Positions 20,426-40,367 of a DNA stretch of 54,862 nucleotides are shown piece by piece; within the stretch, counting starts at the first letter, position 1; the number at the start of each line of letters is the position of its first letter. The notes below the pieces were generated by a model. The model saw nothing but the letters and a program-made list of their open reading frames with translations. It did not search any database and was not told the DNA's origin. Both the position numbers and the translations under genes were made by a program. The stretch is from Ignavibacteria bacterium RIFOXYB12_FULL_35_14 (GTDB taxonomy: Bacteria; Bacteroidota; Ignavibacteria; Ignavibacteriales; Ignavibacteriaceae), in the NCBI GenBank assembly GCA_001803045.1, contig MHAR01000008.1:1-54862 (forward strand), given 5' to 3'.

Positions 20426-20891
20426 AATTGCTTTGTGTTTTTAAGTAGTTTAGTTGTTCTAAAACGAATAGCAAAAGAGTTGAACCCAAAAGTAATCCGG
20501 TTACTAATGCAAATAATTTTGAGTAAGTGTAAATGCCAAGAGTAGTAAATGAAACATCAATTAACATTAAGATAAAAGAAGAAAGTAAAAAGTAAAAAGC
20601 TCTTTTGGGAATTTTTGTAAGGATTAGTGAAAACAGACCTGTTAAGAAAGCTCCCAAATAAATTCCAGTACATCTCGAGCAGACCAAAATATTTTCTCCC
20701 CAAAAACTAATTGTTTTTTCATGCGATTGATGGCAAACTTGTGAGTATGTTAAGTTTAGGAATGGTTTTGCAAATTGATAAACCTTTTCATGCTGGAAAA
20801 TTACCGGTGAGATTATTCCAAAACACAGTAAGCAAATAAAGATGAAGAAAATTATGAGATATTTTTTGGAATACATCTGCGAAAAAATCAT
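20415..20891 (-). CDS. DUF2085 membrane protein
   Basis: The 158-aa protein has the DUF2085 hallmark pair of motifs: VCHQSHEKTISFWGENILVC and then CSRCTGIYLGAF, after one N-terminal helix and before two more. The conserved Cys and His residues could bind metal or haem, but no function is established for the family. The gene overlaps the propeller gene by 4 bp (20888-20891) and the next membrane gene by 11 bp. Confidence 0.85.
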   Translation of the reverse strand: MIFSQMYSKKYLIIFFIFICLLCFGIISPVIFQHEKVYQFAKPFLNLTYSQVCHQSHEKTISFWGENILVCSRCTGIYLGAFLTGLFSLILTKIPKRAFYFLLSSFILMLIDVSFTTLGIYTYSKLFALVTGLLLGSTLLLFVLEQLNYLKTQSNYEK

Positions 20892-21733
20892 TCTTTTGAT
20901 TTATTAAATACAAAAATTTCTTTGGGTGTCAGCACATAAAGTTTATTATTCAGAACAGAACAGCTCAAAATTTTTAAGTCATTGTTAAATCCGATTAAAG
21001 CTATCTTATTTAGAATATTCTCACCAACTCCTATTAAGCTCATGTAAATTTCATTTTCATTATTTAGGATTAGGTTTACAAATGTAGTATTCAAATTTGT
21101 GAATGAATTGCCCAAATTAATTTTTTCTTTTCCATTTCCGAATTGATCGTAAAGAACAAGAAGGGAATCATCAAGGATGAGAATGGAATTATCAAAATTT
21201 ATTGCCAGCTTTTGAGGATTTTTCAGCGAAAATGTTCCCCAATCGAATCCGCCGAAGTTTTGAATGAAATTACCGAACAGATCAAATTTTAGAACGCGTA
21301 TATTTTCAGAATCTAAAACATAAAGATCACCCATAGAAGAAAGAGCGCAACTGAGCGGATAACCAAATCGTTCTTCCGGATTATCTCTTTCGCGGGTAGA
21401 TAATTCTGAAATGAAATTTAGATCCTTGTCGAATGCTTGTACTCGATGGTTTTGCTTATCACAGATGTAAACATTTAAAGGATTTGCGAAAACATCGGTA
21501 GGTGTATCAAATGCCGATTCGCCCCAGCCATAACCTCCGATTTCTTTGATTACATTTCCGAGAGTATCAAGCTTAATTAGAGAATCATCGCCATCATCAG
21601 CAATGTAAATGAATCCTGAAGAAGTAATTGAAAATGCAGAGGCAGATGTGAATTTTCCAAATGAATAATTGAAAATATAAGTCTGACAAAAAATTGTAGT
21701 GGAAAAGAAAATTATTGCTAAAAAAGTCTTCAT
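20888..21733 (-). CDS. Secreted NHL-type beta-propeller protein
   Basis: This 281-aa protein has a signal peptide (KTFLAIIFFSTTIFCQ) and NHL-like blades with the recurring pattern of a Tyr/Val strand, D..N.R(V/I).(A/K)FD, then GNFI. Examples are FIYIADDGDDSLIKLDTLGN, VYICDKQNHRVQAFDKDLNF and LYVLDSENIRVLKFDLFGNF. Such propellers bind proteins or ligands in the periplasm or at the cell surface. It is the first gene of the four-gene minus-strand operon and presumably gives a soluble partner to the membrane proteins. The specific role is unknown. Confidence 0.8.
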   Translation of the reverse strand: MKTFLAIIFFSTTIFCQTYIFNYSFGKFTSASAFSITSSGFIYIADDGDDSLIKLDTLGNVIKEIGGYGWGESAFDTPTDVFANPLNVYICDKQNHRVQAFDKDLNFISELSTRERDNPEERFGYPLSCALSSMGDLYVLDSENIRVLKFDLFGNFIQNFGGFDWGTFSLKNPQKLAINFDNSILILDDSLLVLYDQFGNGKEKINLGNSFTNLNTTFVNLILNNENEIYMSLIGVGENILNKIALIGFNNDLKILSCSVLNNKLYVLTPKEIFVFNKSKE

Positions 21734-21823: not shown

Positions 21824-21960
21824 TGAAGAGTAGGTAGAGAACGTATACTTTATTTTTAGTAAAAGATGGCAAAGCTATATCCGGACAAATTACAATTCAA
21901 AAATAATTACGTATTTGCTTTTTTACAAAATTACTTTTTTAAAAAAGGAGAAATAAAGTT

Positions 21961-24855
21961 GTGAAAATTTTTAAAATTTTAGAAAAGTATTCTGATGTCG
22001 CAATAGATCAATTAGCTGCTGATAAAGTTGATGAATCTGCAAATTTACGACTGCCAAGAAATATTATTGTTCAGGAAATTATATCTGCTCTGAGTTCACT
22101 GACTTATGTTGCAGAAGCTTTAGCACCATCCAAACCACCGAACTATGCTTTCATCAAATTATTGCTCGAAGCACAAGATCATATGCTGCCTGTTGAAGGA
22201 TTTCAGGAAAAAGTAATGCAAGCTACATTTGAAATGACAACAAAAGCCCAGAGCGGTGAAGGTCTTTTAACTATAAAGAATTATAAGCTATATATAAACG
22301 TTTTGAAAAATGCCTGGGAAAGTGGTAACGAAATTGATAGAAGTGAAGCTCAGCTTTTAGAAGCCCTGAGAAATGAACTCGGGATCTGGACGAGGGAACA
22401 TTTGCTGCTTGAACACCATACGGAAATAAAAAAATTATGGGATGTCTCTGACTCTTACGTTGCCGCGAGAAATCGTCTTTTACTAACAGGATTAGTTTTG
22501 ACTTTTGAAAACAACTTTGTGATTGCTGAAGAAGTTGCTTTACAAATTCGCAGGGTTTGGGGAATAGATTTAGAAAAAGACTGCTATGAACGAATGTTAA
22601 ACGGTGTGAAGAATGAACAGCTTTATAATGCCTTGGAAAAAGTTGTGTTAATGGTTAGCGGTACAAAAGAAGAAAAAATAGAAAGAATTATTAATGCTCT
22701 AGTCCCGCCATTTGAATTTTTAGATACGATTTCAATTGATGAATTAAGAGAATATTGCAGGCAAAATAATATTCAGGTTTCAGGAAAGAAGTCAGACGTA
22801 ATTTCAAATATTATAAATCATTTTGAGCAGCGAAATGATTTGAAAACAACTGAAGAAGCAAAAGGCGAACCACTGCTTCCTTTGGAACCCGAAGAAAGAG
22901 AATTAAACAATGAATCCTTTTCAAGACTTTTAGAGAATCTTAATAATGATCAACTCTATGATATGCTTTCTAAAGGGTATTTAAAAACAAGCGGAACTAA
23001 AGAGGAGAAAATTAATAGGTTAGTTGAAAGTCCCTGGTCTGAAAAAAGTTTATTGAATAATCTCAGGAAAATAGAACTTTCAAATTTGTGTTGGAGATTA
23101 GGAATACCAATATCAGGGATTAAAAGTGAAATAATTGAAAGAGTAATTGAAGGTGCTTCAGTTAGATTTAGTGAATCCTATCAAAAGGCTGCTGAAGAAG
23201 ATCAAGAGGGCAGTATAGAAGCCAAACAACCAGATATAGAAGAAAAGACTTCCGATGTTGGTGAAATTGAAGATTTAAAAAAACAAATCGAATTGCCAAA
23301 AGCTTTTGAAGAAATAGCCGCGCAGTTTCCCGAACTTGAAAAAGATGAACAAATTATTCTTGCTCTTTTAAAAGAAACAAAATCTTTAACAGAACAGGAT
23401 ATAGAACGCGCGAGTAAAAGACACGGGCTTGGGTGGTTTTTAATTAAAGCACGCTTGTCGGAAATGATATATAAATTGCGAAAATCACATAAGATGCCAA
23501 TTCGGGTTAAAAGTGTGAGAAGCATAAATATTTATGAATGGATCGGTGAAAAATTAATAGAAAATAATTTAAATGAATCTAAAATATCCAAAGATATAAT
23601 TGATGCACTGAGACAAGGAGTAGTTCCCGAAAAGAATCTTGATGTATTACTTATTGGTCAATCAAAAACTCATCAGTATTTAAAAAATTTATTGGATGAA
23701 ACAAAAATTAATGAATCATTCTTTAAATTTATTAGAGGCCCTTATGGAGCAGGTAAAACATTTTTGTGTTCGTGGTTTAGAGAATATGCATTAAATAATG
23801 AATTTGCTGTTTCAACAGTAAACATTGGACCTGACCAACCTTTATCTGATTTACCGATTTTCTTTTCAGGTTTAATTAATGGTTTAAGAACTCTGGAAAA
23901 GAGAGACTCAAGTTCTTTGGTAGATATTTTAGAATTGTGGCTGCTTAACATTCATAGAAAGACTGCTCAAATTGAAGGAATGACTTCTTTGGAACCTTCA
24001 ATTCAAAAGCAATTAAGAACTATTGTTGAAAGAAGAGTCGAATCAGAACTTGCCTACTTAGCGGATTTAGATCCGGGTTTTGCTCCTGCGTTGCGGGCAT
24101 TTTATATAGCAAGAAGCAATGGTGATCAAGTTACAGCATCTACAGCCGTTGCATGGTTAAGTGGAAGCAGATCAATGTCCACAAGTAATCTTAGAGAGAT
24201 CGGCATTAAAGGTTATTTAGAACCCAATGAAGTATTCCCAAGAATAAGAGCACTCTTAGAAGTCATTAAAGGTGCTCGTTATCAGGGTTTATTGTTATTG
24301 GTGGATGAATTGGAATTAATAAGAAGATTTCCTCATACAAGACAACGCGAACAAGCATTAGAAATACTTCGTTTATTAATTGATGAATCAGGTAAAAACG
24401 GTTTCCCAGGATGTCTTTTAATTTTCACTGGTACAGATGCTTTTTTTGAGGATGATCGTGCCGGGCTTAAAAGTTATGAAGCTTTAGCTGACAGAGTAAT
24501 AGTCCCCAATGTTTCTGAAACAATAAGTAGCATGAGACAACCGGTCATAACTTTAGAAGGGTTGAACTATCAAAAACTATTAGATGTGGCAAAGAAGATA
24601 AGAGATATTCATGGTGTTGCTTATAATTGGAATAGTAAAGAAAAATTAACAGATGAAATGTTGGAAAATTTAGTCCGGGAATGGACTGCATTCGGGGAAG
24701 AACAAATTAAAAGAAAACCTCGTCCTGTTTTAAGAGAATTAATAATTATTCTTGATCTGTGTGAAGAAAATCCAGGTCTTTCATATACTGATTTGATGAA
24801 GGTCAATAATAACAAAAATAATATTGCCTCACAGATAACATCAATATTAAACTGA
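21961..24855 (+). CDS. BREX-type P-loop ATPase (BrxC/BrxD family) with TerB-like and SAP-like N-terminus
   Basis: This 964-aa protein starts at GTG, 10 nt after AAGGAG (21945-21950). The C-terminal half is a DUF2791-type ATPase: Walker A GPYGAGKT at 593-600, Walker B LLLLVDELE with Asp782-Glu783, and a TGTDAFFEDDRAG sensor region. This family appears as BrxC/BrxD in BREX phage-defence loci. The first 160 residues are helical, with a TerB-like segment. Residues 218-290 and 329-398 are two copies of one unit, each made of two SAP-like helical motifs (QLY ... SGTKEEKI.R, then EL...C ... SG.KS..I), which suggests DNA binding. Residues 440-525 look winged-helix-like. No methylase, PglZ or other BREX gene is nearby. 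Confidence 0.8.
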   Translation: MKIFKILEKYSDVAIDQLAADKVDESANLRLPRNIIVQEIISALSSLTYVAEALAPSKPPNYAFIKLLLEAQDHMLPVEGFQEKVMQATFEMTTKAQSGEGLLTIKNYKLYINVLKNAWESGNEIDRSEAQLLEALRNELGIWTREHLLLEHHTEIKKLWDVSDSYVAARNRLLLTGLVLTFENNFVIAEEVALQIRRVWGIDLEKDCYERMLNGVKNEQLYNALEKVVLMVSGTKEEKIERIINALVPPFEFLDTISIDELREYCRQNNIQVSGKKSDVISNIINHFEQRNDLKTTEEAKGEPLLPLEPEERELNNESFSRLLENLNNDQLYDMLSKGYLKTSGTKEEKINRLVESPWSEKSLLNNLRKIELSNLCWRLGIPISGIKSEIIERVIEGASVRFSESYQKAAEEDQEGSIEAKQPDIEEKTSDVGEIEDLKKQIELPKAFEEIAAQFPELEKDEQIILALLKETKSLTEQDIERASKRHGLGWFLIKARLSEMIYKLRKSHKMPIRVKSVRSINIYEWIGEKLIENNLNESKISKDIIDALRQGVVPEKNLDVLLIGQSKTHQYLKNLLDETKINESFFKFIRGPYGAGKTFLCSWFREYALNNEFAVSTVNIGPDQPLSDLPIFFSGLINGLRTLEKRDSSSLVDILELWLLNIHRKTAQIEGMTSLEPSIQKQLRTIVERRVESELAYLADLDPGFAPALRAFYIARSNGDQVTASTAVAWLSGSRSMSTSNLREIGIKGYLEPNEVFPRIRALLEVIKGARYQGLLLLVDELELIRRFPHTRQREQALEILRLLIDESGKNGFPGCLLIFTGTDAFFEDDRAGLKSYEALADRVIVPNVSETISSMRQPVITLEGLNYQKLLDVAKKIRDIHGVAYNWNSKEKLTDEMLENLVREWTAFGEEQIKRKPRPVLRELIIILDLCEENPGLSYTDLMKVNNNKNNIASQITSILN

Positions 24856-27098
24856 TGGGCACTGATATTTATAACAAATCTTCAGAACTGGACAGTATTC
24901 ACGAGGGATTACAAAAGATTGTTATTGAAAAAGGATGGAAAGATCTTTCTGACATACAAAAAGCAGCGATTCCGGTAATCTTAAATAATAAAGATTGTAT
25001 AGTTGAGGCGCCAACAGCCGGGGGAAAAACTGAAGCTGTATTTTTTCCCGTTTTAACTCGTTCATCAAAAGACAAAAAATCTTCTGTCCAAATTTTATAC
25101 TTAGCACCGTTGCGTGCTTTACTTAATGATATTGAGTTACGTGCCGAATCTTATGCAGAGGCTTGTAGTTTACATTGCTTTAAATGGCATGGGGATGTTG
25201 GACAAAATGATAAAATTGAAGAATTCAAAAATCCTTCACAGCTACTCTTAACTACGCCTGAATCTTTAGAAGCAATAATGTTAAGAAAAGCAGGATGGAA
25301 TAAATTCTTTGATGGTCTTGAAGTAATAATAATTGATGAAGCACATAACTTCGCTTCGAGTGACAGAGGCAGCCATTTAATTACGTTATTAGAGAGATTG
25401 GAAACAGCAATTGATAAACAGCCTCAAAGAATAGCAATATCAGCTACTATTGGTAACCCGGAAGAAATGTTAAATTGGTTAGCGGGACGAAAAAGAAAAA
25501 TAGGTCAGCGAGTTAAGGTTATTGCAAAGGTAGAGAAGCAAAAAGAATTTAAAATCTCATTCTTTAATGAAGATAATGACACAGAAGATAATACAGCTTC
25601 TTCTGCTTTGAATCGTTATTTCCTTAATTTGTATAAATCACTTCCTAATAAAAAATCTATTATTTTCGGCGGTTCAAGAACTTATACTGAAAAGTTAGCG
25701 TCTGCAATCAATCGAATGAATACTCATTCAGGAACAAGAAACCCCGTCAGGGTACGCACTCATCATTCTGCAGTAAGTAAATTTTATCGTGAGGAAGCTG
25801 AGAGCTTAATAAAGATGAAGTCTTCTTTTGGAAGCGGATTAGAAGCTATTATTAGTACTTCTACACTTGAATTAGGTATTGATGTAGGAGAATTGGACCA
25901 GGTCATTCAGGCTGGTGCTCTTTCAAGTTCAAGTTCGTTTCTTCAGAGAGTTGGAAGAACCGGAAGAAGACCAAATAAGCCTCAGGTCTTTGAAGGATTG
26001 TGTTTAAGGGAAGATGATCTAATTCTACTCACCGCTGTTGTTAGTCTGGGATTAAAAGGTATATCTGACAAAATAAATTTTCCTACAAAAGCTTATCATA
26101 TAATGGCTCACCAAATTATTTGTTTAAGTCTTCAAAATAATGGCATAACTGTACAAAAGGCCTGGGATATTCTTTCAGCCGCATATTGCTATTCTAATAT
26201 TACTTTTGAAAAATTTAAAACATTGATTGATTATATGATAGAGCGTGAATATTTAAGAAACGTCGATGAATTATTAATAGTTGGCAGAGTATGTGAAAAG
26301 AATTTTTTAGGTGCCAATTGGAGGAAGTTATTTGCGGTATTTGATAGCAGCTTTATGTACGATGTTTGGAGTGAAAAAAAACATATTGGAACTTTAGATG
26401 CATCTTTTGTGGAAGCTTTAGATATACCCTTCTTTTTTGTATTAGGTGGAATCGAATGGGAGGCGGTAAAAGTAAAATATGAATCCAGAGAATTATTTGT
26501 AAGAAAAACAGAAATAGGCGATGCCCCTAAATGGATTGTTTATGGGGGTCAGGAGATTCCTTATGAAACTGCAAAGGAAGCCGGGGAAATATTATTTGGG
26601 AACGAAAGAATTAATTTCTTAACCAATGAAGCAGGAGAATGCATTAGTTCAAAAAGAGAAAAGTTAAAATTTATAAACTGGTCTGAAAATATTTGGCGAA
26701 TTGTTTTATTGAATGATAACAAAGCTGAAATCTGGACATTCACCGGAGACCGTATTAATAAAACCTTAGCAAAACTTATAACTTTATCCGGTGTTGGAAT
26801 GGCTACATCCAGTTATCAAAGAGTTGAAGTCCGCCGAAGGAAAAATGATGAAACAAAACTGGATATAGTAATTTCAGAATTCCTAAATAAATTGAAATCA
26901 ATTAATGAAGAATCATTTAAATATTTTGCAACCAAATTATTAGAAGAGGTCAGAACAACTAAGGTTTCCAAGTTTAGCAAACTACTTCCGGAAGCACTAT
27001 GGCGTGAAGCAGTTGCAGAACAAACTTTTGATTTAAGGGGCTTGGTTGAAAAAATAAAAAATAAGAAATTATTTACCGGAATGCAGATAGTTTTGTAA
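24855..27098 (+). CDS. DEAH helicase, BrxHI/Lhr-like
   Basis: The 747-aa superfamily 2 helicase has a Q motif (LSDIQKAAIP), motif I APTAGGKTE (52-60), Ia APLRALLND, DEAH at 161-164, SAT at 196-198, motif V STLELGID (336-343) and motif VI QRVGRTGR (364-371). The long C-terminal part after residue 380 carries an Lhr-like winged-helix/beta region rather than RecQ or UvrD features. The start shares one base with the ATPase stop (TGATG), so the two proteins are made in a fixed ratio. The order ATPase then helicase matches brxD-brxHI in larger BREX loci. Role in phage defence or DNA repair is inferred; here the pair stands alone. Confidence 0.85.
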   Translation: MGTDIYNKSSELDSIHEGLQKIVIEKGWKDLSDIQKAAIPVILNNKDCIVEAPTAGGKTEAVFFPVLTRSSKDKKSSVQILYLAPLRALLNDIELRAESYAEACSLHCFKWHGDVGQNDKIEEFKNPSQLLLTTPESLEAIMLRKAGWNKFFDGLEVIIIDEAHNFASSDRGSHLITLLERLETAIDKQPQRIAISATIGNPEEMLNWLAGRKRKIGQRVKVIAKVEKQKEFKISFFNEDNDTEDNTASSALNRYFLNLYKSLPNKKSIIFGGSRTYTEKLASAINRMNTHSGTRNPVRVRTHHSAVSKFYREEAESLIKMKSSFGSGLEAIISTSTLELGIDVGELDQVIQAGALSSSSSFLQRVGRTGRRPNKPQVFEGLCLREDDLILLTAVVSLGLKGISDKINFPTKAYHIMAHQIICLSLQNNGITVQKAWDILSAAYCYSNITFEKFKTLIDYMIEREYLRNVDELLIVGRVCEKNFLGANWRKLFAVFDSSFMYDVWSEKKHIGTLDASFVEALDIPFFFVLGGIEWEAVKVKYESRELFVRKTEIGDAPKWIVYGGQEIPYETAKEAGEILFGNERINFLTNEAGECISSKREKLKFINWSENIWRIVLLNDNKAEIWTFTGDRINKTLAKLITLSGVGMATSSYQRVEVRRRKNDETKLDIVISEFLNKLKSINEESFKYFATKLLEEVRTTKVSKFSKLLPEALWREAVAEQTFDLRGLVEKIKNKKLFTGMQIVL

Positions 27099-27304: not shown

Positions 27305-27377
27305 TGCCCCGTGGTGTAACTGGCAACACGCCTGACTCTGGATCAGGAAAGTTCAGGTTCGAGACCTGACGGGGCAG
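27305..27377 (+). tRNA. tRNA-Gln (CTG)
   Basis: The acceptor stem TGCCCCG / CGGGGCA is perfect, with discriminator G at 27377. The anticodon stem CCTGA / TCAGG encloses CTCTGGA, giving anticodon CTG. The T arm is CAGGT-TCGAG-ACCTG. A truncated copy of its 3' half follows three bases later. Confidence 0.95.
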
Positions 27378-27379
27378 CT

Positions 27380-27432
27380 GACTCTGGATCATCCCGACAA
27401 AGTCGGGAAGGTTCGACCCCTGACGGGGCAGC
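27380..27432 (+). repeat. Truncated tRNA-Gln 3'-half copy with inserted palindrome
   Basis: It repeats the anticodon region (CTGACTCTGGATCA) and the 3' end (CTGACGGGGCAGC) of the adjacent tRNA-Gln. Between them the variable region is replaced by the palindrome TCCCGACAAAGTCGGGA. The T loop is kept (AGGTTCGACC). It has no 5' half and cannot fold as a tRNA. A related, more decayed copy is at 40105-40152. Confidence 0.75.
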
Positions 27433-28118: not shown

Positions 28119-28274
28119 ATGAAAAACACAACACAAAATATCGATTCAGTTTTCGTGGATGCCGAATTTGGCAATAGCAGTGTTGTGTCAAATAACCTGT
28201 CTTCAATCAACATCATTCTAGGGATTACTATTATTTTAGCTCTACTTGGTATTATTATTACCATTCTAGGCTAA
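28119..28274 (+). CDS. 51-aa Ile/Leu-rich ORF, candidate ilv leader peptide
   Basis: The ORF starts at ATG 28119 shortly after the predicted transcription start and ends in TAA (28272-28274), 109 nt before ilvD. Residues 30-50 contain ten Ile and five Leu out of 21 (INIILGITIILALLGIIITI), an extreme bias. The first 29 residues are polar with Val pairs. This is what a ribosome-attenuation leader for a branched-chain amino acid operon would look like. The alternative is a real single-helix membrane microprotein. A weak hairpin GGGTT-GACA-AACCC (28334-28347) lies between it and ilvD, but I see no convincing terminator, so the mechanism is unproven. Confidence 0.55.
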   Translation: MKNTTQNIDSVFVDAEFGNSSVVSNNLSSINIILGITIILALLGIIITILG

Positions 28275-28373
28275 GATAAAAAAGTCAATCCTAAATCAAG
28301 CTAAAAACATAAAAAGAAAAAAGTAAGATCGAAGGGTTGACAAAACCCGGAGATGCTTTTTGAAGATTTTTTT

Positions 28374-28380
28374 AGGAGGT
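28374..28380 (+). promoter_or_regulatory. Shine-Dalgarno AGGAGGT that sets the ilvD start
   Basis: The AGGAGGT lies 3 nt before TTG 28384. A farther in-frame TTG at 28360 lies upstream of this site and cannot use it. Confidence 0.7.
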
Positions 28381-28383
28381 CTG

Positions 28384-30063
28384 TTGCGATCTGACTTAAT
28401 AAAAAAAGGCTTTGATAAGGCGCCCCACCGCAGCTTACTTAAAGCCACCGGCGTAATTAAAAGCGATGATGATTTTGATAAACCATTCATTGGTATTTGT
28501 AATTCCTATATCGATTTAATACCCGGGCATGTCCATTTGCAAGAGTTTGGTAAAGTCATTAAGGAAGCCGTAAGGGAAGCGGGAGGTGTTCCTTTTGAAT
28601 TCAACACGATTGGTGTTGACGACGGAATTGCAATGGGGCATCTTGGTATGCGATACTCATTACCGAGTCGGGAGTTGATTGCAGACTGTGTTGAGACAGT
28701 TGTGGAAGCTCATCGTTTGGATGGCATGGTCTGTATTCCGAACTGCGATAAAATTGTTCCCGGTATGTTGATGGCGGCAGTTCGAGTTGATATTCCGACA
28801 ATTTTTATATCGGGAGGACCGATGAAAGCAGGTCGTACACCCGATGGAGAGAAAGTTGATTTAATTTCCGTGTTTGAAGGAGTCGGAAAATTTCAGGCAG
28901 GAACAATTGATGAGAAAAAATTAAAAGAATACGAAGACTTCAGTTGTCCGACTTGCGGTTCATGCTCGGGAATGTTTACTGCGAATTCTATGAACTGTTT
29001 GATGGAAGCCCTTGGACTCGCTCTACCCGGAAACGGGTCCATTCTTGCAATAGACCCGCTTAGAAAAGATTTAGCAAAGAAAGCAGCAAAGCAAATTCTA
29101 ACTCTCATAGAGAAAGATCTGAAACCGAGTAAAATACTTTCCCGCGAATCGTTTATGAATGCGTTTGCACTCGATATGGCAATGGGCGGCAGCACGAATA
29201 CTGTTCTACACGCACTTGCAATTGCAAATGAAGCAAAAATTAATTTCCAATTGAAGATGCTTAATGAACTTTCCGAAAGAGTTCCATATATCTGCAAAGT
29301 AAGTCCTGCTACTAAAAACGTTCACATGGAAGATGTTGATAGAGCGGGAGGAATTTCTGCAATACTAAATGAAATTTCCAAAGTGAATGTCCTCGATTTA
29401 TCAAGACCAACTGTAACCGGAAAAACCCTTGGCGAAAATATTGCCGATGTGAAAATTCTTGACAGCACAATTATCAAAACCGTTGAAGAACCATATTCAA
29501 AAACAGGAGGACTTGCCGTATTATTCGGAAATTTGGCGCCATATGGATCTGTTGTAAAAACAGGTGCCGTAGAATTAAACATGCAAATTTTTTCTGGACC
29601 GGCAAGAATATTTGAATCGCAGGAAGAAGCGGTAGAAAAAATATTAGCTGGCCAAGTTAAAACCGGTGACGTTGTTGTTATAAGATATGAAGGACCGAAG
29701 GGAGGACCGGGAATGCCTGAAATGCTTTCGCCGACAAGTGCAATTGTGGGTTTAGGATTTGGAGATAAAGTTGCTCTTATCACCGACGGAAGATTTTCCG
29801 GAGGGACACGCGGAGCCTGCATCGGTCATATTTCTCCCGAGGCGGCTGAACGTGGTCCGATAGCGGCTCTTCAAAATGGTGATGTCATAAATATTGATAT
29901 TCCAAAAAGAACTCTGAATGTGGAATTGGCGGATGAAGAGATTCAGCAAAGGTTGAATGCTCTTCCCGAATTCGTACCAAAAATAAAAAGCGGCTATCTT
30001 GCACGTTACGCAAGAATGGTCTCCTCTGCAAATACCGGTGCTATTTTAAAAAATAATTTCTAA
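28384..30063 (+). CDS. ilvD: Dihydroxy-acid dehydratase
   Basis: IlvD dehydrates 2,3-dihydroxy-isovalerate and 2,3-dihydroxy-3-methylvalerate to the 2-keto acids of valine and isoleucine, using an Fe-S cluster. From TTG 28384 the protein starts [20 protein letters not shown], the usual IlvD N-terminus, and has 559 aa, the normal length. A start at 28360 would add eight residues and lie upstream of the AGGAGGT. Cluster cysteines fall in [25 protein letters not shown] and [11 protein letters not shown]. It is the first enzyme gene of a nine-gene operon, downstream of the Ile/Leu-rich leader ORF. Confidence 0.97.
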
Positions 30064-30083
30064 TTAGATAGAAAGAATACATT

Positions 30084-31802
30084 ATGAAAAAATCAGAAAA
30101 CATTTTAGGTGGGGCAGAAATATTCTTTGAATGTTTAAGGCGGGAAAAAGTTGAACACATTTTCGGTTACCCCGGCGGAGCTGTCCTTAAAATCTATGAA
30201 CACCTCCATGATGTCAATTTCCTTCAGCATATTCTTGTTCGCCATGAACAAGGCGCAGTTCATGCAGCCGAAGGTTATGCCAAGGCATCCGGAAAAGTCG
30301 GAGTTGTATTAGTAACATCCGGGCCTGGCGCAACCAATACTGTCACAGGTATTGCAGATGCTTATATGGATTCTGTTCCCATCGTTATTTTTACCGGTCA
30401 GGTTCCTTCTCACTTAATCGGTAATGACGCTTTTCAAGAAGCAGATATTGTTGGAATCACCCGTCCTATTACTAAACATAGTTTTCTTGTTCGTGATGTT
30501 AATGACCTTGCAGCCACAATCAGAAAAGCTTTTTATATAGCCTCAACCGGAAGACCCGGACCTGTTCTTGTAGATTTACCTAAAGATGTGATTGCATCTA
30601 AATGTGAATTCATTTACCCGGAAGATGTAGAGATACGCGGATACAAACCAACATACAAAGGGCATGTCAATCAGATTAAAAAAGTTGTGGAAGTTATCGC
30701 TGCTGCAAAGAGACCATTACTTTATGTGGGTGGGGGAGTAATTATGTCGGGCGGTTCCCAAGAGCTTGCTTTTTTTGCGCGCGAAAATAAATTGCCGGTA
30801 GCAATGACACTTCAAGGGCTTGGTGCATTTCCCGGAACAGACAGTCTATCGGTCGGTATGCTTGGAATGCATGGAACCTATTGGGCAAACAGAGCAGTTG
30901 ACACTTGCGATGTGCTTGTTTCTTTAGGTGCAAGGTTCGATGATAGAGTTACCGGAAAAGTTGAAACGTTTGCTAAGAATGCATATAAAATTCACGTTGA
31001 TATTGATCCTACATGCATCGATAAAAACGTTGTTGTAGACCTGCCTATAGTTGGCGATGTAAAACATATAATTGCTGAAATTGCTTCGGAGATGCCAAAT
31101 CCGCCTGACACTGAAGAATGGTTATCCCAAATAAATGAGTGGCGCGAAGAATGTCCGCTCGTTTACGAAGATAATGACGGCAGGTTAAGAACTGAATTTG
31201 TAATAGAGAAGATATATGAAAAAACAAAAGGTGAAGCTGTCATTGTCACCGATGTCGGTCAGCATCAGATGTGGACAGCACAATTTTACAGATACAATCA
31301 TCCGCGCTCAAATCTAACAAGCGGTGGATTAGGTACAATGGGATTTTCGCTTCCTGCAGCAATCGGGGCTTCATTTGCCGTTAAAAACAGACCTATTATT
31401 TCAATAAGCGGCGATGGTGGATTTCAAATGAACATTCAGGAATTAATTACCGCCGCTGCAAACAAAGTTCCGGTGAAATTCATAATCATCAATAATAGTT
31501 TTCTTGGAATGGTTAGACAATGGCAAGAACTATTTCACGCAGAGAAATATAGCTTTACTGATTTAAGTGCAAGTAATCCAGATTTTGTAAAAGTAGGTGA
31601 AGCCTTTGGAATTGAATCTTACTCAACCGATAATCCAAAAGAAGTTGATTCACTTTTAGATAAAGCATTTTCGGTTAATGATCGGCCTATTCTGTTAGAA
31701 TTCAAAGTTGTAAAAGCCGATATGGTTTTTCCAATGGTTCCATCGGGAGGATCAATTTCCGAGATGATTGTCAAACGACTAAATCCAAAGAGGATGATTT
31801 AA
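30084..31802 (+). CDS. ilvB: Acetolactate synthase, large (catalytic) subunit
   Basis: This ThDP enzyme makes 2-acetolactate from two pyruvates, or 2-aceto-2-hydroxybutyrate from pyruvate and 2-ketobutyrate. The 572-aa protein has the catalytic Glu55 in VRHEQGAVHAAEGYA, the FAD-region stretch GPGATNTVTGIADAYMDSVP, and the ThDP motif SGDGGFQMNIQEL ... NNSFLGMVRQWQ near the C-terminus. It begins 20 nt after ilvD and is followed by ilvN after 1 nt, so the two subunits are made together. Regulation by valine would go through IlvN. Confidence 0.97.
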   Translation: MKKSENILGGAEIFFECLRREKVEHIFGYPGGAVLKIYEHLHDVNFLQHILVRHEQGAVHAAEGYAKASGKVGVVLVTSGPGATNTVTGIADAYMDSVPIVIFTGQVPSHLIGNDAFQEADIVGITRPITKHSFLVRDVNDLAATIRKAFYIASTGRPGPVLVDLPKDVIASKCEFIYPEDVEIRGYKPTYKGHVNQIKKVVEVIAAAKRPLLYVGGGVIMSGGSQELAFFARENKLPVAMTLQGLGAFPGTDSLSVGMLGMHGTYWANRAVDTCDVLVSLGARFDDRVTGKVETFAKNAYKIHVDIDPTCIDKNVVVDLPIVGDVKHIIAEIASEMPNPPDTEEWLSQINEWREECPLVYEDNDGRLRTEFVIEKIYEKTKGEAVIVTDVGQHQMWTAQFYRYNHPRSNLTSGGLGTMGFSLPAAIGASFAVKNRPIISISGDGGFQMNIQELITAAANKVPVKFIIINNSFLGMVRQWQELFHAEKYSFTDLSASNPDFVKVGEAFGIESYSTDNPKEVDSLLDKAFSVNDRPILLEFKVVKADMVFPMVPSGGSISEMIVKRLNPKRMI

Positions 31803-31803
31803 T

Positions 31804-32316
31804 ATGAAACACACAATTTCTGTATTGGTAGAAAATCATTTTGGCGCATTCGATCGTGTTGCCACTATGTTCAGCGGTAAAGGATTCAACATTAGAAGCA
31901 TTTCAATTGGTGAAACCGAAATTGTAGATATCTCACGGATGACGATTGTTACTGAAGGTGACGATCAAATTATTGATCAAGTGGTAAAACAATTGAACAG
32001 GCTGATTGATACAATCAAGGTAGTTGATCTTGCAAATACGTACCATGTTGAACGCGAGCTTGCTTTAATCAGTCTAAGCCTTCACAAAGGGTCAATGGAA
32101 CAAATAAAAAATATTTGCGACATCTTCCGGGGAAACGTTGTTGATATCACTAATAAATCGATGATGATTGAGGTTACAGGACCACCCGACAAAATTGACG
32201 CCGCCGTAAATGTTCTTGCCCCGTTCGGAATCAAAGAGATGGCTCGTTCTGGAATCGTGGCATTAAAACGAGGTGAGCAATTAAAAATTCAAAAAAAAGA
32301 TAACATTACAACTTAA
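31804..32316 (+). CDS. ilvN: Acetolactate synthase, small (regulatory) subunit
   Basis: The 170-aa protein has an N-terminal ACT domain (KHTISVLVENHFGAFDRVAT, then GKGFNIRSISIGETE), which binds valine in homologues, and the C-terminal activation domain (ERELALISLS ... MMIEVTGPPDKIDA ... EMARSGIVALKRG). Its 170-residue length fits the common IlvN/IlvH form. It activates IlvB and makes it sensitive to feedback. It starts one base after the ilvB stop. Confidence 0.96.
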   Translation: MKHTISVLVENHFGAFDRVATMFSGKGFNIRSISIGETEIVDISRMTIVTEGDDQIIDQVVKQLNRLIDTIKVVDLANTYHVERELALISLSLHKGSMEQIKNICDIFRGNVVDITNKSMMIEVTGPPDKIDAAVNVLAPFGIKEMARSGIVALKRGEQLKIQKKDNITT

Positions 32317-32329
32317 TTAAGGAAATAAA

Positions 32330-33346
32330 ATGAAAGTTTATTATGAACAAGATGCGAACATTGAACTGCTTAAATCAAAAAATATTGCTGTGCTCGGCTT
32401 TGGGAGTCAAGGTCACGCTCATTGCCTGAACTTGAAAGAAAGCGGTATGAATGTTTGTGTCGGTCTTCGAAACACATCTGCTAGTTGGGAAAAAGCCAAG
32501 AATGCCGGTGTTGAAGTTAAAACCATTGCCGACGCAGTTAAATGGGCGAATGTAATAATGATTCTTCTTCCGGACCAGAATCAGAAAGAAGTTTATGATA
32601 AGCAAATTGCTCCGAATTTAAATCCGGGTAACACGATTGCATTTGGTCATGGATTCAATATTCATTACAAACAAATTGTTCCACCACCAGATGTTAATGT
32701 TATGATGATTGCACCGAAGGGTCCGGGACATTTAGTTCGAAGAACATTTTTAGAAGGATCCGGTGTTCCCTGTCTGATAGCTATTCATCAGGATCCATCA
32801 GGACGAACAAAAGATCTTGCGCTTGCATGGGCGAAAGGAATTGGCGGCACAAGAGCAGGTGTTATCGAGACAAATTTTAAGGATGAAACGGAAACAGACT
32901 TATTCGGTGAACAAGCAGTATTGTGCGGCGGCTCTGCAGAACTCATCAAAGCGGGGTTTGAGACTTTGGTGGAAGCAGGTTATCCACCTGAACTGGCCTA
33001 TTTTGAATGTATGCACGAAATGAAATTAATTGTAGATCTCTACTATGAAGGAGGTCTTTCTAGAATGAACTACTCGGTGAGTGATACTGCCGAGTACGGC
33101 GGAATGACTAGAGGAAGCAGATTGATAACTGCCGATACAAAAAAGGAAATGAAGAGAATTCTTTCCGAAGTTCAGAGCGGACAGTTTGCAAAAGAATGGC
33201 TTGATGAATACAATGCGGGTATGCCAAAGATGAATCAGCTTAGAAAAGAAAACAGAGAACATATTATTGAAGAAGTAGGTGCAAAGTTAAGAGGAATGAT
33301 GAGCTGGCTCTTTAAGAAGAATAAAAAGGAAGAGGTTGGTGTATGA
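32330..33346 (+). CDS. ilvC: Ketol-acid reductoisomerase
   Basis: IlvC rearranges and reduces acetolactate to dihydroxy-isovalerate, and the ethyl homologue on the isoleucine branch, with NAD(P)H and Mg2+. The 338-aa class I enzyme has the dinucleotide motif [15 protein letters not shown] (residues 21-35), the [10 protein letters not shown] loop that sets cofactor choice, [13 protein letters not shown], and the Mg-binding [10 protein letters not shown]. Its last four bases (ATGA) overlap the leuB start. It is preceded by a GGAAAT-type site. Confidence 0.97.
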
Positions 33347-34440
33347 GTTACCAGGTTGTTTTACTTCCCGGCGATGGCATAGGCCCGGAGGTAACAAACG
33401 CCGCAGTTCAAGTGATGAAAACTGCTGCAGAAGTTTTTAATGTGGCGCTTGAATTCAACGAACAATTAATTGGCGGTTGTTCTTATGAAAAATATCAGGT
33501 TCCCTTAACCGACGAAACACTCCAAGCATGTTACGATTCAGACGCAGTATTCCTCGGTGCGGTCGGAGGTCCTAAATGGGAATCGCTTCCGCATCAACTT
33601 AAACCGGAAGCAGCTCTTCTCAAACTTAGAAAAGCACTTGGACTATTTACAAACATTCGTCCGGCAAAAGTTTATGATGCTTTGATTGATTCATCCACCA
33701 TGAAGAAAGAAGTTTTGCATGGAACTGATTTTATTGTTCTGCGCGAATTGACCGGAGGAATTTATTTTGGTGAACCGCGAGGATTTGATAATGAAAGGGG
33801 ATGGAATACGATGGAATATTCTCGTGAAGAAGTTGAACGCATTGGTAGAATGGCATTTAAGATGGCACGTGAAAGAAGAAGAAAAGTTACATCAGTAGAC
33901 AAAGCTAATGTTCTTGAAGTCTCTCAGTTCTGGAGAAACACAATTCACGAAGTTCATAAAGAATTTACTGATGTTGAGCTAAACGATATGTATGTTGATA
34001 ACGCAGCGATGCAAATTGTGCGAAATCCAAAACAGTTTGATGTTGTTCTTACTTCAAATTTGTTCGGTGATATTCTCAGCGATATAGCGGGCATGATTAC
34101 CGGAAGTTTAGGAATGCTGCCCTCGGCGAGTATCGGAAGTAAATATTCTTTGTATGAACCGGTTCATGGAAGTGCACCTGATATTGCAGGACAAGGCAGC
34201 GCAAATCCGCTTGCGGCAATTTCATCTGTAGCATTAATGTTCAATTATACTTTCGGAATACAAAAAGCGGCAGATGTAATTGAGAAAGCAATCGAACTGG
34301 CGCTTGCGAAAGGATTACGTACCCAAGATATTTTATCTGAGGGCTGCAAATTGGTATCAACACAAGAAATGACCAATGCTGTAATTGAAAACATAAATGA
34401 AATTTATCACAACCAGGCTCTTGGGGTGTTTAGCTTATAA
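33343..34440 (+). CDS. leuB: 3-isopropylmalate dehydrogenase
   Basis: LeuB oxidatively decarboxylates 3-isopropylmalate with NAD+ to 2-ketoisocaproate. The 365-aa protein has [12 protein letters not shown] at the N-terminus, [17 protein letters not shown], and the substrate-binding [14 protein letters not shown]. The dehydrogenase signature is [20 protein letters not shown]. With cimA present, this LeuB probably also handles the methylmalate step of isoleucine synthesis. It overlaps ilvC by four bases, and a 68-nt gap without a terminator separates it from leuA. Confidence 0.96.
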
Positions 34441-34508
34441 ACAGTTAAGCACTCGCTCAAAAAGAGAAGGATGAAAAATTTAACTTTTTAAAAGTCATAG
34501 GCAAGAAT

Positions 34509-36089
34509 ATGAACGAACGAATTATAATATTCGACACAACCTTAAGAGATGGAGAACAATCTCCCGGCGCATCATTAAATGTTTATGAAAAATTAGAGAT
34601 TGCCCGGCAGCTCGCAAAATTAAAAGTCGACGTAATCGAAGCCGGCTTTCCGGTCTCATCTCCGGCTCAATTTGAAGCCGTAAAAAGAATTGCAGATGAA
34701 TCGGAAGTGATAATTGCAGGATTAGCACGTGCAAAAGAAATTGATATCAAAGCTGTGTACAATGCATTACGAAATGCTAAGAAGCCGAGGATTCATACTT
34801 TTTCGAGCACGTCTGATATTCATATACTCGGGAAATTCGGTGATAGCAAGTACGGCGCTTCACTCGAGGAAAAAAGAAAAACTATTTTAAAAATGTCTTA
34901 CGATTCAATTGCTTACGCAAAAACGTTTTGTAACGATGTAGAATTTTCGGCTGAGGATGCAGGAAGAACCGATATCGGTTATCTATGCGATATAATTGAA
35001 ACTGCAATCGAAGCAGGTGCAACAACTGTCAATATTCCCGATACAACCGGATATACATTTCCATCTGAATTCGGTTTTAAGATTGCGGAATTGAAAAGAA
35101 GAGTTAGGAACATAGATAAAGTTATCATTAGCGTTCATTGTCATAACGATCTTGGGCTGGCAGTTGCTAATTCAATCATTGCAATTCAAAATGGCGCCCG
35201 ACAAGTTGAATGCACTATAAACGGAATTGGTGAAAGAGCTGGTAATGCTTCGCTTGAAGAGATTGTTATGGCTCTCAAAGTTCGTAACGACATTTGTAAT
35301 TATTACACAGACATCGACATAACAGAAATTTATAACACAAGCAGAATGGTTTCGGGATTTACTGGAATTGTTGTGCAGCCGAATAAAGCTATTGTCGGCG
35401 AAAATGCGTTCGCACATGAATCCGGCATTCATCAGGATGGCATGCTGAAGAATAAACAGACCTATGAGATCATGACTCCTGAATCTGTTGGAGTTAACAA
35501 AACAAAAATTATCCTTGGCAGGCATTCCGGCAGGCATGGTTTGAAATCACGCTTAGGTGAATTGGGTTATCATCCTTCTGAAGAAGACATGCAAAAAGTA
35601 TATGAAGCATTTCTTGAACTGGCGGATAAAAAGAAAGAAGTGTTCGATGACGACCTGAGAGTATTAATGGGTGATGAGATTTATAAAAAAGAAGAATTGT
35701 ACGAACTTCAATACTTACATGTCACTGCAGGAACTGATACTATTCCAACAGCGACAATTAAGATCAGATCAAACGAAAAAGTTATACAAGAATCTTGTAC
35801 CGGAGATGGACCTGTTGATGCATGCTTTAATGCAATAGAAAGAGCTCTCGAAATCAGACCTACAGTTGAATCTTACAATGTTCGTTCTGTTACTTCGGGA
35901 AGACAGGCACTCGGCGAAGCAATTGTCAGGATTAGAAACGGTGAAAATTCTTTCACAGGCAGAGGAACATCAACAGACATTATTGAAGCAAGCGCAAAAG
36001 CATATCTGCAGGCAATTAATCAATATCTGCTTTTTACAAAAACAAATTTAGAGTTTCATGAGGATGAGTTGATCATCAGAAATGTTTAA
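34509..36089 (+). CDS. leuA: 2-isopropylmalate synthase
   Basis: LeuA joins acetyl-CoA to 2-ketoisovalerate, the first step of leucine synthesis. The 526-aa protein has the HMGL-like catalytic domain with FDTTLRDGEQSPGASL at the start, the metal motif HCHNDLGLAVANS and NGIGERAGNASLEEIVMAL. Then come the linker (HESGIHQDGMLK) and a C-terminal allosteric domain (about 390-520) with EKVIQESCTGDGPVDACF, where leucine binds in homologues. It differs from the cimA product by the DGEQSPG start motif (DGTQGEG in CimA), which tells the two paralogues apart. Confidence 0.96.
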   Translation: MNERIIIFDTTLRDGEQSPGASLNVYEKLEIARQLAKLKVDVIEAGFPVSSPAQFEAVKRIADESEVIIAGLARAKEIDIKAVYNALRNAKKPRIHTFSSTSDIHILGKFGDSKYGASLEEKRKTILKMSYDSIAYAKTFCNDVEFSAEDAGRTDIGYLCDIIETAIEAGATTVNIPDTTGYTFPSEFGFKIAELKRRVRNIDKVIISVHCHNDLGLAVANSIIAIQNGARQVECTINGIGERAGNASLEEIVMALKVRNDICNYYTDIDITEIYNTSRMVSGFTGIVVQPNKAIVGENAFAHESGIHQDGMLKNKQTYEIMTPESVGVNKTKIILGRHSGRHGLKSRLGELGYHPSEEDMQKVYEAFLELADKKKEVFDDDLRVLMGDEIYKKEELYELQYLHVTAGTDTIPTATIKIRSNEKVIQESCTGDGPVDACFNAIERALEIRPTVESYNVRSVTSGRQALGEAIVRIRNGENSFTGRGTSTDIIEASAKAYLQAINQYLLFTKTNLEFHEDELIIRNV

Positions 36090-36098
36090 GAAATAAAA

Positions 36099-37394
36099 AT
36101 GGGAATGACAATCACAGAAAAAATATTTGCGAAAGCATCTAAGAAAACAAGAGTAGCTCCAGGTGAAAGTGTTTGGTTAGATGTAGATGTGCTGATGACA
36201 CATGATGTGTGCGGACCGCCAACAATTGCAATCTGGAAAAAAGAATTCGGTGAGAAAGCAAAAATTTGGGATAAAGAAAAATTGGTGATCTTTCCGGATC
36301 ATTACATTTTTACAAAAAACACGAACGCAAATAGAAATGTTGATTTACTTCGTGAGTTCGCAAGAGAATATGATTTGCCAAACTATTACGATGTTGGAAC
36401 CGAACGTTACAAAGGTGTTTGTCATATCGCCCTTGCAGAAGAGGGTTACAATGTACCGGGGACAGTTTTGTTCGGAACAGATTCACATACATGTACATCC
36501 GGCGCCTTTGGAATGTTTGCAACCGGAGTTGGCAACACAGATGCCGCTTTCATAATGGGAACCGGGAAAATATGGGAGAAAGTGCCTGAGTCCATCAAGT
36601 TTACATTCAACGGAAAAATGCCCGAATACATTACTGCTAAGGATTTGATCCTTCAAATTCTTGGAGACATAACAACGGATGGTGCAACCTACCGGGCTAT
36701 GGAATTTGGAGGTGAAGCAATTGGATCAATGAATATGATGGAAAGGATGACTTTGACAAACATGACAATCGAAGCTGGTGGTATGAATGGAATAATTGCC
36801 GTTGATGATGTTACAAGACACTATCTCAATGAAATTGATGTTACGCAATATGAAGAGTTTAATAGTGATGAAGATGCGTTTTATCATTCTCAATACAAAT
36901 ACGATGTTGAATTAATGGAACCCCTTGTTGCCAAACCGCATAGTCCGGATAACATGGACAAAGTAAAAAATGTTGAAGGTACCAACCTTACCAAATGTTA
37001 CATTGGCTCTTGCACCGGCGGAAAGCTGACTGATTTTCAGTTTGCAGCTAAATTGCTGCTCGGGCAAAAAGTGAAGGTAACAACCTTTATTGTTCCGGCA
37101 AGTACTCAAATTGCCAAGCAGTTGGAGGCAGAGGCAATAAGCGGTGTTTCTCTTAAAGATATTTTTACAAATGCGGGATGTATTATTGCAGAATCGTCTT
37201 GCGCTGCTTGTTTAGGCGGTCCTTCGGATACAATCGGTAGAAGTGTAGAAGGTGATGTGGTTATATCAACTACTAACAGAAATTTCCCGGGTAGAATGGG
37301 AAGTAAATTATCGCAGGTATATTTGGCCTCTCCGCTCACAGTTGCCGCTTCAGCAATATCCGGAGAAATAACTGATCCGAGAAAATTTTTATAA
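36099..37394 (+). CDS. leuC: 3-isopropylmalate dehydratase, large subunit
   Basis: LeuC carries the [4Fe-4S] cluster that isomerises 2- to 3-isopropylmalate and, with CimA, citramalate to 3-methylmalate. The 431-aa protein has the aconitase-type motifs FPDHYIFTKN, GTDSHTCTSGAFGMFATGVG and, near the C-terminus, the cluster cysteines in YIGSCTGGKLTDF and CAACLGGPSD. Its length of about 420-430 fits the archaeal/bacterial short type rather than the 466-aa E. coli type. The partner leuD follows after 152 nt, interrupted by an inverted-repeat element. Confidence 0.95.
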   Translation: MGMTITEKIFAKASKKTRVAPGESVWLDVDVLMTHDVCGPPTIAIWKKEFGEKAKIWDKEKLVIFPDHYIFTKNTNANRNVDLLREFAREYDLPNYYDVGTERYKGVCHIALAEEGYNVPGTVLFGTDSHTCTSGAFGMFATGVGNTDAAFIMGTGKIWEKVPESIKFTFNGKMPEYITAKDLILQILGDITTDGATYRAMEFGGEAIGSMNMMERMTLTNMTIEAGGMNGIIAVDDVTRHYLNEIDVTQYEEFNSDEDAFYHSQYKYDVELMEPLVAKPHSPDNMDKVKNVEGTNLTKCYIGSCTGGKLTDFQFAAKLLLGQKVKVTTFIVPASTQIAKQLEAEAISGVSLKDIFTNAGCIIAESSCAACLGGPSDTIGRSVEGDVVISTTNRNFPGRMGSKLSQVYLASPLTVAASAISGEITDPRKFL

Positions 37395-37420
37395 TTGCCC
37401 CCTCCTAAATGAGGGTGGCC

Positions 37421-37508
37421 AAAAAGTAACTCTGCAATTAAATGATCTGCGAAAATCAGTTAAAATCTGCATCATCAGTGTGCTATTTTAAAATAATTGT
37501 TACTTTTT
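37421..37508. repeat. 88-bp element with 10-bp terminal inverted repeats, between leuC and leuD
   Basis: AAAAAGTAAC (37421-37430) and GTTACTTTTT (37499-37508) are perfect inverted repeats. Between them the pattern ATCTGC-(n)-ATCAG occurs twice in tandem (ATCTGCGAAAATCAG and ATCTGCATCATCAG). The element has no coding capacity and sits in the only sizeable gap of the operon. It looks like a miniature palindromic insertion. Confidence 0.6.
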
Positions 37509-37546
37509 AATCAGCCTCACTTTTAAAGGCAAAAAAGGAATAAATA

Positions 37547-38104
37547 ATGGAAAAGAAAATAATTGGTAAAGCATATGTTCTTGGTGATAACATTGATACA
37601 GATCAAATCATTCCAGCTGAACACCTGGTATACAGCACAAGCGATCCGGAAGAATTAAAAAAGTATGGACACTTTGCATTATCAAGTGTGCCGATCGAGC
37701 AAGCTGGATTGCCATTCGGCGGTAAACCTTTTATTGACGGTGATAATCACAAGTCAAAATTTAACATAATCGTCGGCGGCTCAAACTTCGGATGTGGTTC
37801 ATCGCGTGAACACGCACCCCTTTCGCTTCAAGTTGCCGGAGTTAAAGCCGTTGTTGCAGAATCTTACGCAAGAATTTTCTATCGCAATTCTGTAGATGGA
37901 GGTTTTGTTATTCCCTTTGAAAGCAGCTCAAAGCTGAATGATAAAATTAAAACGGGTGATGATGTAGAAGTAGATTTAGAGAGCAGCAAAATCACAAATC
38001 ATTCAAGTGGAGAAACATATCGCCTCCGTCCGCTTGGAAGTGTGTATGACATTGTAAAGAGCGGTGGACTATTTAATTACGCGCGTGAAAATAATATGAT
38101 ATAA
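37547..38104 (+). CDS. leuD: 3-isopropylmalate dehydratase, small subunit
   Basis: LeuD is the swivel-domain partner of LeuC. The 185-aa protein has GDNIDTDQIIPAEHL at the N-terminus and the signature GGSNFGCGSSREHAPLSLQ, followed by SYARIFYRNSVDGGF. Its size fits the short LeuD type that pairs with a 420-430-aa LeuC. It starts 38 nt after the inverted-repeat element and ends 21 nt before cimA. Confidence 0.96.
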   Translation: MEKKIIGKAYVLGDNIDTDQIIPAEHLVYSTSDPEELKKYGHFALSSVPIEQAGLPFGGKPFIDGDNHKSKFNIIVGGSNFGCGSSREHAPLSLQVAGVKAVVAESYARIFYRNSVDGGFVIPFESSSKLNDKIKTGDDVEVDLESSKITNHSSGETYRLRPLGSVYDIVKSGGLFNYARENNMI

Positions 38105-38125
38105 AATTATACAAGAGAGAACCAA

Positions 38126-40271: not shown

Positions 40272-40345
40272 GGCGCGTTCGTCTAGTGGCTTAGGACACC
40301 GCCCTCTCAAGGCGGGGATCACGGGTTCGAATCCCGTACGCGCTA
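40272..40345 (+). tRNA. tRNA-Glu (CTC)
   Basis: The acceptor GGCGCGT pairs with ACGCGCT, giving the G1-U72 pair usual in Bacteroidota tRNA-Glu. The anticodon stem CCGCC / GGCGG encloses CTCTCAA, giving anticodon CTC. The T arm is ACGGG-TTCGAAT-CCCGT. It lies 0.75 kb before hemX and hemA. Glutamyl-tRNA is the starting substrate of the haem route, but that is normally the TTC isoacceptor. Confidence 0.95.
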
Positions 40346-40367
40346 CAAAGATGGCTTAAAGCACCGC

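Follow-up and report, generated by a model that had tools for sequence, protein, structure and literature searches.

Two overlapping genes in the stretch of DNA analysed here (the window; 54,862 nucleotides from Ignavibacteria bacterium RIFOXYB12_FULL_35_14) encode an ATPase and a helicase. These are of the types named BrxD and BrxHI in bacteriophage exclusion (BREX) systems. The ATPase is fused to a long N-terminal half that carries SAP repeats. We consider that the pair is probably a horizontally moving, two-gene system against foreign DNA, which is built on the BrxD-BrxHI dyad and is independent of BREX. With somewhat less assurance, we favour a third, unnamed family of stand-alone BrxD-BrxHI systems. 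In such a family, SAP/winged-helix recognition would be part of the loader ATPase itself, and its module would also occur joined to a PD-(D/E)xK-like nuclease. The pair is neither BREX nor Shango as these are defined, yet it is the same kind of machine: two genes, with recognition fused to the loader. We found no description of a SAP-fused BrxD, or of a named two-gene system of this kind, in the literature searched; subscription papers and some preprints lay outside that search.

The gene pair, its relatives and its insertion site

The preliminary description of this DNA reported a BrxC/BrxD-family ATPase and a BrxHI-like helicase overlapping at TGATG. Both open reading frames (ORFs) lie where it placed them and match the corresponding profiles (Table 1). 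The stop codon of the ATPase (TGA, 24853-24855) and the start codon of the helicase (ATG, 24855-24857) share one base. The GTG start of the ATPase aligns with the ATG starts of its relatives. Residues 541-948 match PF10923 (BrxC_BrxD) at 315 bits, for a cut-off of 22.2. In PADLOC, the ATPase scores higher with BrxD (264 bits) than with SngB (177 bits), and the helicase higher with BrxHI (528 bits) than with SngC (440 bits). The ATPase falls below the NCBIfam BREX_BrxD equivalog cut-off (261.4 against 350 bits). Alignment shows the Walker A and Walker B motifs to be intact in 12 of 12 fused ATPases. Helicase motifs I, II and VI are intact in all 10 aligned helicases, and motif III reads (S/T)AT. 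The preliminary description also claimed a good promoter upstream. This did not hold up: a scan confined to sigma-70-like sites found one, against a mean of 1.5 in shuffled sequences.

An alignment of the ATPase with four BrxD proteins served as query against about 85,000 species genomes, and we took the best 80 of 492 confirmed stretches. Ten of these 80 cover the whole or nearly the whole ATPase, at 50-74% identity (49-74% in an alignment of the family). An eleventh, locus L036, matches the C-terminal part only (58% identity), and its N-terminal part lies on another contig of the same genome. For the remaining 69, the match starts at residue 485 or later and identity is 29-35%. The relatives are labelled in their record titles as Candidatus Brocadia, Bacteroidetes, Aminicenantes, Ignavibacteria, Deltaproteobacteria and Chitinophaga; apart from three Chitinophaga isolates, all are metagenome bins. 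When 395 genomes of the window's phylum were searched with a profile of the N-terminal half, only the window's own yielded the fused protein. Among 294 genomes from the family of Chitinophaga filiformis (L035; Chitinophagaceae), the same profile detected it in 4, two of them new. The fused ATPase is thus known from 14 genomes: the ten full-length cases, L036, the two new Chitinophagaceae and the window. The helicase lies directly 3' of it in all 14. At the 12 loci measured the spacing is -8 to +42 bases, and in the two new loci the helicase is directly next. The helicases of the relatives are 46-63% identical to that of the window; the one in L032 is split into two ORFs and the one in L033 is cut by the contig end.

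Phylogenetic trees were built for 71 ATPase domains and for 60 helicases. Both came from quick searches and have some long branches; the former carries warnings on long branches meeting, and the latter is rooted on two ligase-associated DEXH helicases. The 12 fused ATPases form one clade, with a support of 100 in the Shimodaira-Hasegawa-like approximate likelihood ratio test (SH-aLRT). The 15 Shango ATPases form another (SH-aLRT 100), with the fused family outside it. BREX type 2, TerY-P-type (see below) and other BrxD sequences stand together on a separate branch (99). In the helicase tree, the 10 helicases of the fused family likewise group as a single clade (100), which falls on the BrxHI side (96), not within the Shango clade (99). 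The window copy is closest to the copy of the Brocadia bin in both trees. A nearest neighbour shared in this way would fit joint transfer of ATPase and helicase.

The pair is a 5.5 kb insertion beside tRNA-Gln. In the window, an NHL-repeat gene and the tRNA-Gln are 5571 bp apart, and that interval is the pair. In a genome of the same genus, the NHL gene is 156 bp from tRNA-Gln, and tRNA-Glu follows right after. In two other relatives, the closer tRNA of the Gln/Glu pair is 118 bp and 30 bp away from the NHL gene; no tRNA was found near the NHL gene of a fourth relative looked at. None of the 58 relatives searched, same genus included, has the fused protein; one of them has a 24% ATPase match of Shango type. 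The spacing of 5571 bp against 156, 118 and 30 bp, together with absence from 58 relatives, is direct evidence that the pair is gained or lost as one unit.

The N-terminal half of the ATPase

An N-terminal half not seen in typical BrxD had been noted before; it is real and is kept in the relatives. The SAP family PF02037 matches it at 50.1 bits over two stretches (cut-off 23.9). PF02037 was found in 11 of 12 family members, the exception, unnamed in the tally, presumably being the truncated L036. The two tandem pairs of repeats resemble one another in hhalign (probability 99.6%), as do the repeats within each pair (94.5-96.8%); four unrelated controls gave 1% or less. When a family profile was compared with the PDB, it matched the SAP domains of DEK, Ku70, SIZ1 and THO1 (E 0.005-0.05).

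AlphaFold2 (AF2) models had a predicted local distance difference test score of 82.6 for residues 1-210 alone and 75.1 for the N-terminal 543 residues. Neither model gave a Foldseek match at E<=0.001. The VIA matches of residues 1-210 were mostly winged-helix proteins, judged by their titles, the best at Z 7.2 and none at Z 8. The 543-residue model matched two TFIIH chains, with Z 8.3 and 8.2 and root-mean-square deviations of 5.1 and 5.3. Residues 46-202 weakly resemble the winged helices of the origin recognition complex (ORC) in structure (Z about 6). From these likenesses, the array of SAP repeats, probably with winged-helix parts, is predicted to bind DNA.

The recognition module is also found elsewhere. 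Residues 40-290 are homologous to residues ~42-316 of two proteins from genomes G139 and G129 (hhalign probability 99.2%, E 2.2e-19). These SAP-nuclease proteins, which are unnamed, are solitary and have 516 amino acids (L016:1270-2820 and L017:946-2496). In the draw of 395 phylum genomes, SAP-nuclease proteins occur in two genomes other than the window's own. Like the fused ATPase, they have two SAP-type repeats in the homologous module. Where the fused family has its ATPase, they have a C-terminal PD-(D/E)xK-like motif, recognised by eye. The C-terminal part of the L017 protein weakly matches the FokI cleavage domain (E 0.005). No helicase ORF was seen beside either protein in their 3.6-3.7 kb loci. 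They are possibly stand-alone defence nucleases.

BREX, Shango and the rival explanations

In BREX type 2 (Pgl), BrxD belongs to the same ATPase family as the fused ATPase (29-31% identity) and BrxHI to the same family as the fused-family helicase (about 30-33%). Gene order and tight spacing are also alike. However, BREX type 2 has PglY and PglZ. By blastp, PglZ/PglY was found at 0 of the 11 fused loci tested, against 59 of the 69 remaining BrxD loci from that search (L043, among the 59, on a doubtful 49-bit match). This absence speaks for the immediate surroundings only, because several fused loci are short contigs. The fused ATPases are also a separate clade and, unlike BREX type 2 BrxD, add 540 residues of SAP-bearing sequence. 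PMC12839542 describes BrxD without added DNA-binding domains.

In the window's own genome, the ATPase gene is the sole PF10923 place. There is a single PglZ place (E<=0.001), which encodes a 522-residue protein with a response regulator and a PglZ domain. We take this protein to be PorX-like. It has relatives at 40-79% identity in 7 of 11 related genomes. PF08665 (PglZ) occurs in 8 of the 11 relatives' genomes, at nine places, seven of them PorX-like. The others, L113 (genome of L026) and L114 (genome of L027), are different PglZ proteins on contigs other than that of the pair; hence the genomes of L026 and L027 may hold a BREX-type system elsewhere. The genome-wide scans, which covered PF10923 and PglZ but not PglX, PglW, BrxA or BrxB, give no sign of a BREX core in the window's own genome.

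BrxD-BrxHI pairs in other contexts were also seen. In actinobacterial loci L043, L052, L055, L056 and L072, the pair apparently follows vWA, PP2C and kinase-like genes, not BREX genes. This context, of the TerY-P type, was read in translation for three of the loci only, L043, L055 and L072. The ATPases of these loci form one clade and the helicases another, both within the BREX type 2 side. On a plasmid of Deinococcus psychrotolerans (L021), two BrxD-BrxHI copies each follow a different uncharacterised protein, again a non-BREX context.

The preliminary description held that in BREX loci these two proteins always come with others. The context given was incomplete, since dyads of an ATPase and a helicase that do not belong to BREX had already been described under the name Shango, together with SngA. 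In Pseudomonas, Shango has a modest inhibitory effect on several phages (PMC10250203). Like the fused pair, Shango is a small operon that ends in a BrxD-like ATPase and a BrxHI/Lhr-like helicase and lacks BREX partners. A further protein stands ahead of the ATPase, as the N-terminal half does in the fused family. Shango differs in having three separate genes (SngA-SngB-SngC) where the fused family has two. SngA carries TerB-type domains, whereas the fused N-terminal half has SAP repeats; SAP was not found by Pfam in three SngA proteins scanned. The Shango ATPases and helicases fall in other clades than those of the fused family, and blastp found no SngA in the 11 relatives' loci. Plasmid records with a Shango-type SngB (E<=1e-40) number 680, of which 449 are from Klebsiella and 144 from Salmonella. 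In one Salmonella plasmid record (L162), the operon consists of a TerB_N protein, the ATPase and the helicase.

Defence-type genes flank the pair at several loci. L030 has Cas9, Cas1 and Cas2-like ORFs downstream, and the Cas9 and Cas1 models also matched in PADLOC. Pfam was run on 10 of the 72 flank proteins, picked for their defence-like appearance. It identified a caspase and an ATPase_2 gene in L034; a caspase, a TIR-FGE protein and a TerB protein in L035; a UvrD/PIF1-like helicase and a HipA-like kinase in L036; and an OLD-like ATPase (AAA_15/AAA_21) in L029. By eye, we recognised a UvrD-like helicase in L033, a CHAT-like fragment at the edge of L026, and a DnaQ-like exonuclease ORF (L028:5573-6409) that overlaps the end of the helicase gene and is a possible extra effector. 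At E<=1e-10 in PADLOC, the 72 flank proteins matched 126 families, those listed including Cas9, Cas1, AbiLi and RTasHel. As a control with conserved context, we took 84 proteins that lie near PorX in seven of these genomes. These matched six families: three PglZ models (at most seven proteins each, presumably PorX itself), mad2, mad3 and AriA. The comparison supports, and does not prove, a link to defence islands.

Could the pair be something already known? That it is the remnant of a type 2 BREX locus that has decayed is barely conceivable, although BrxD and BrxHI give the best profile scores for the two proteins. Against this, the two-gene unit recurs, fused N-terminus included, in 14 genomes; its motifs are intact in the members aligned, and it has a clade of its own in both trees. 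The PorX-like PglZ, the single PF10923 place and the 11 loci without PglZ/PglY led us to reject it. The pair is also unlikely to be Shango in the strict sense, with SngA (TerB/TerB_C) joined to SngB, an insertion of SAP repeats, and SngC next in line. PADLOC does match SngB and SngC to the pair, and the Shango gene order is the fusion order. There are also weak, correctly placed matches to TerB domains. Residues 445-535 match TerB_C in hhalign with P 0.001 and probability 22% (seven control slices, P 0.0064-0.47). The N-terminal half matches TerB with P 0.0026 in a register consistent with SngA, a weak result for a comparison in which controls were made for TerB_C and the SAP pair only. The PADLOC SngA model matches the N-terminal half in 2 of 11 members, weakly (best E 1.1e-4); however, DruL, which is unrelated, likewise matches 2 of 11 weakly. 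A whole-profile comparison of the N-terminal half with 14 SngA and SngA-like proteins was not significant (probability 1.2%), and the 25 Pfam families counted across 12 members at E<=1 include no TerB model. On these two results we rejected a simple SngA-SngB fusion with TerB, which a motif (EIDRSEAQLLEALRNELGI) had prompted, and because of them such a fusion is kept only as a rival. No TerB structure was among the VIA matches listed, an absence that we do not count against TerB. The ATPases lie outside the 15-member Shango clade, the helicases group with BrxHI rather than SngC, and BrxD and BrxHI outscore SngB and SngC.

A pair for DNA repair, replication restart or chromosome maintenance, which merely happens to be mobile, is quite unlikely. 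SAP domains are known from repair and chromatin proteins, the PDB matches including Ku70 and DEK, and Lhr-type helicases can be repair enzymes. The window copy also sits among ordinary genes. Conversely, the distribution is very patchy (the 1 of 395 and 4 of 294 genomes above), the insertion is missing from the same genus, and several relatives have defence-type neighbours. Cargo that serves a mobile element, by excluding rivals or by self-maintenance, and not the cell, is very unlikely. The insertion does lie beside a tRNA, and L034 has a partial serine-recombinase-like ORF, recognised by eye. However, Pfam found no integrase among eight window neighbours scanned, the rest of the window being outside that scan. 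None of 72,556 plasmid records covers 80% of the fused protein. Phage records and two viral-contig scans contain no match to it, on which grounds we rejected a phage or viral origin.

Several observations weigh against a defence system that moves between genomes. The same lack of phage and viral-contig matches is one. Neither the ATPase nor the helicase showed a nuclease or toxin domain in Pfam, NCBIfam or PADLOC, and this leaves the effector step unexplained. Not all loci have defence-type neighbours: by eye, none was recognised at L027, L031 or L032, and the eight window neighbours scanned by Pfam are ordinary. The PADLOC tally gives no count of defence genes, because it is based on families, several per protein, and the proteins are unnamed. 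Some phylum labels may be wrong, because most relatives are metagenome bins that possibly contain misplaced contigs. The preliminary description suggested that the two proteins may form an independent defence unit, and proposed that defence islands be sought around relatives. Independence is borne out by the 14 genomes in which the fused ATPase is followed by the helicase and by the 11 loci without PglZ/PglY. Defence is plausible from family membership, mobility and some of the neighbours; defence islands are suggested at several loci, and not at the three named above or in the window.

We envisage the following mechanism for the anti-foreign-DNA system. The N-terminal array (the SAP repeats and probably the winged-helix parts) would bind DNA and set where or when the system acts. 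The ATPase, a member of the ORC/Cdc6-like ATPases associated with diverse cellular activities (AAA+) and presumably oligomeric, would assemble there and load or drive the superfamily 2 (SF2) helicase. The helicase would then unwind or clear the target DNA, so that replication is blocked or the DNA is exposed to host nucleases. In this scheme we infer complex formation, helicase loading, the target DNA and the protective effect. PMC12839542 classes BrxD as ORC-Cdc6 AAA+ and proposes that it loads or activates BrxHI, and PMC12278908 places SngC, BrxHI, DruE and DpdJ in a potentially distinct SF2 helicase clade tied to antiphage immunity. ORC/Cdc6-type loaders thus share the AAA+ class of BrxD, and ORC winged helices are those that residues 46-202 weakly resemble. 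They act with a replicative helicase at origins, whereas the fused ATPase would act with an SF2 helicase on foreign DNA.

A two-protein form should be easier to purify, assay and solve than a six-protein BREX locus. With the pair, one could learn whether the ATPase acts as a helicase loader and which DNA feature triggers it. The nuclease-linked module is an independent handle on what that module recognises. If a third family is the right reading, it would comprise a swappable DNA-sensing module with a helicase or nuclease output. It would also show how a helicase system of two proteins could do without the modification and nuclease partners of BREX.

Features of the window and minor observations

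Table 1. Features of the gene pair and its borders (window coordinates)
Feature	Position	Strand	Basis
NHL-repeat protein, left edge of insertion	20888..21733	-	in 41/41 genomes searched, own included
AAGGAG ribosome-binding site ahead of ATPase GTG	21945..21950	+	sequence
Fused recognition-loader protein, 964 aa, GTG start: predicted N-terminal DNA-binding array and BrxD-type AAA+ ATPase	21961..24855	+	ORF, alignment with relatives
N-terminal domain, residues 1-204, tentatively winged-helix-like with helical insertion	21961..22572	+	AF2 model
Four SAP-type repeats, residues ~205-405, two tandem pairs	22573..23175	+	PF02037, hhalign, PDB profile matches
Residues 445-535, possibly related to SngA TerB_C tail	23293..23565	+	hhalign
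BrxC/BrxD-type AAA+ ATPase domain, residues 541-948	23581..24804	+	PF10923; Walker A RGPYGAGKT, Walker B LLLVDELE
TGATG stop-start overlap, putative translational coupling	24853..24857	+	sequence
BrxHI-type SF2 helicase with Lhr-type winged helix, 747 aa	24855..27098	+	ORF, profiles, relatives
tRNA-Gln(CTG), right edge of insertion	27305..27378	+	tRNA search; <200 bp from NHL gene in three relatives

Right after the tRNA-Gln, at 27385-27432, there is a degenerate second copy of its 3' half, recognised by eye; L139 is similar. The tRNA-Gln and tRNA-Glu genes are adjacent in three relatives. In the window they are separated by a stretch (28360-39718, before tRNA-Glu at 40272-40346) that contains ilvD and other genes, has a higher GC content (about 0.40) and is a second, separate insertion. 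The window ilvD shares 91% identity with the ilvD of a genome in a different family of the order; ilvD is found at E<=1e-100 in 23 of 41 genomes searched, own included. Upstream of ilvD, a 51-residue ORF (28119-28274, + strand) has an Ile- and Leu-rich run (SINIILGITIILALLGIIITILG) at its end and resembles a leader peptide for branched-chain amino acid attenuation; Rfam gave no family match there at gathering score. The window's own genome also has two Cas1 places (G000:C6:39160-40029 and C36:183-956), so the host probably has CRISPR-type systems elsewhere as well.

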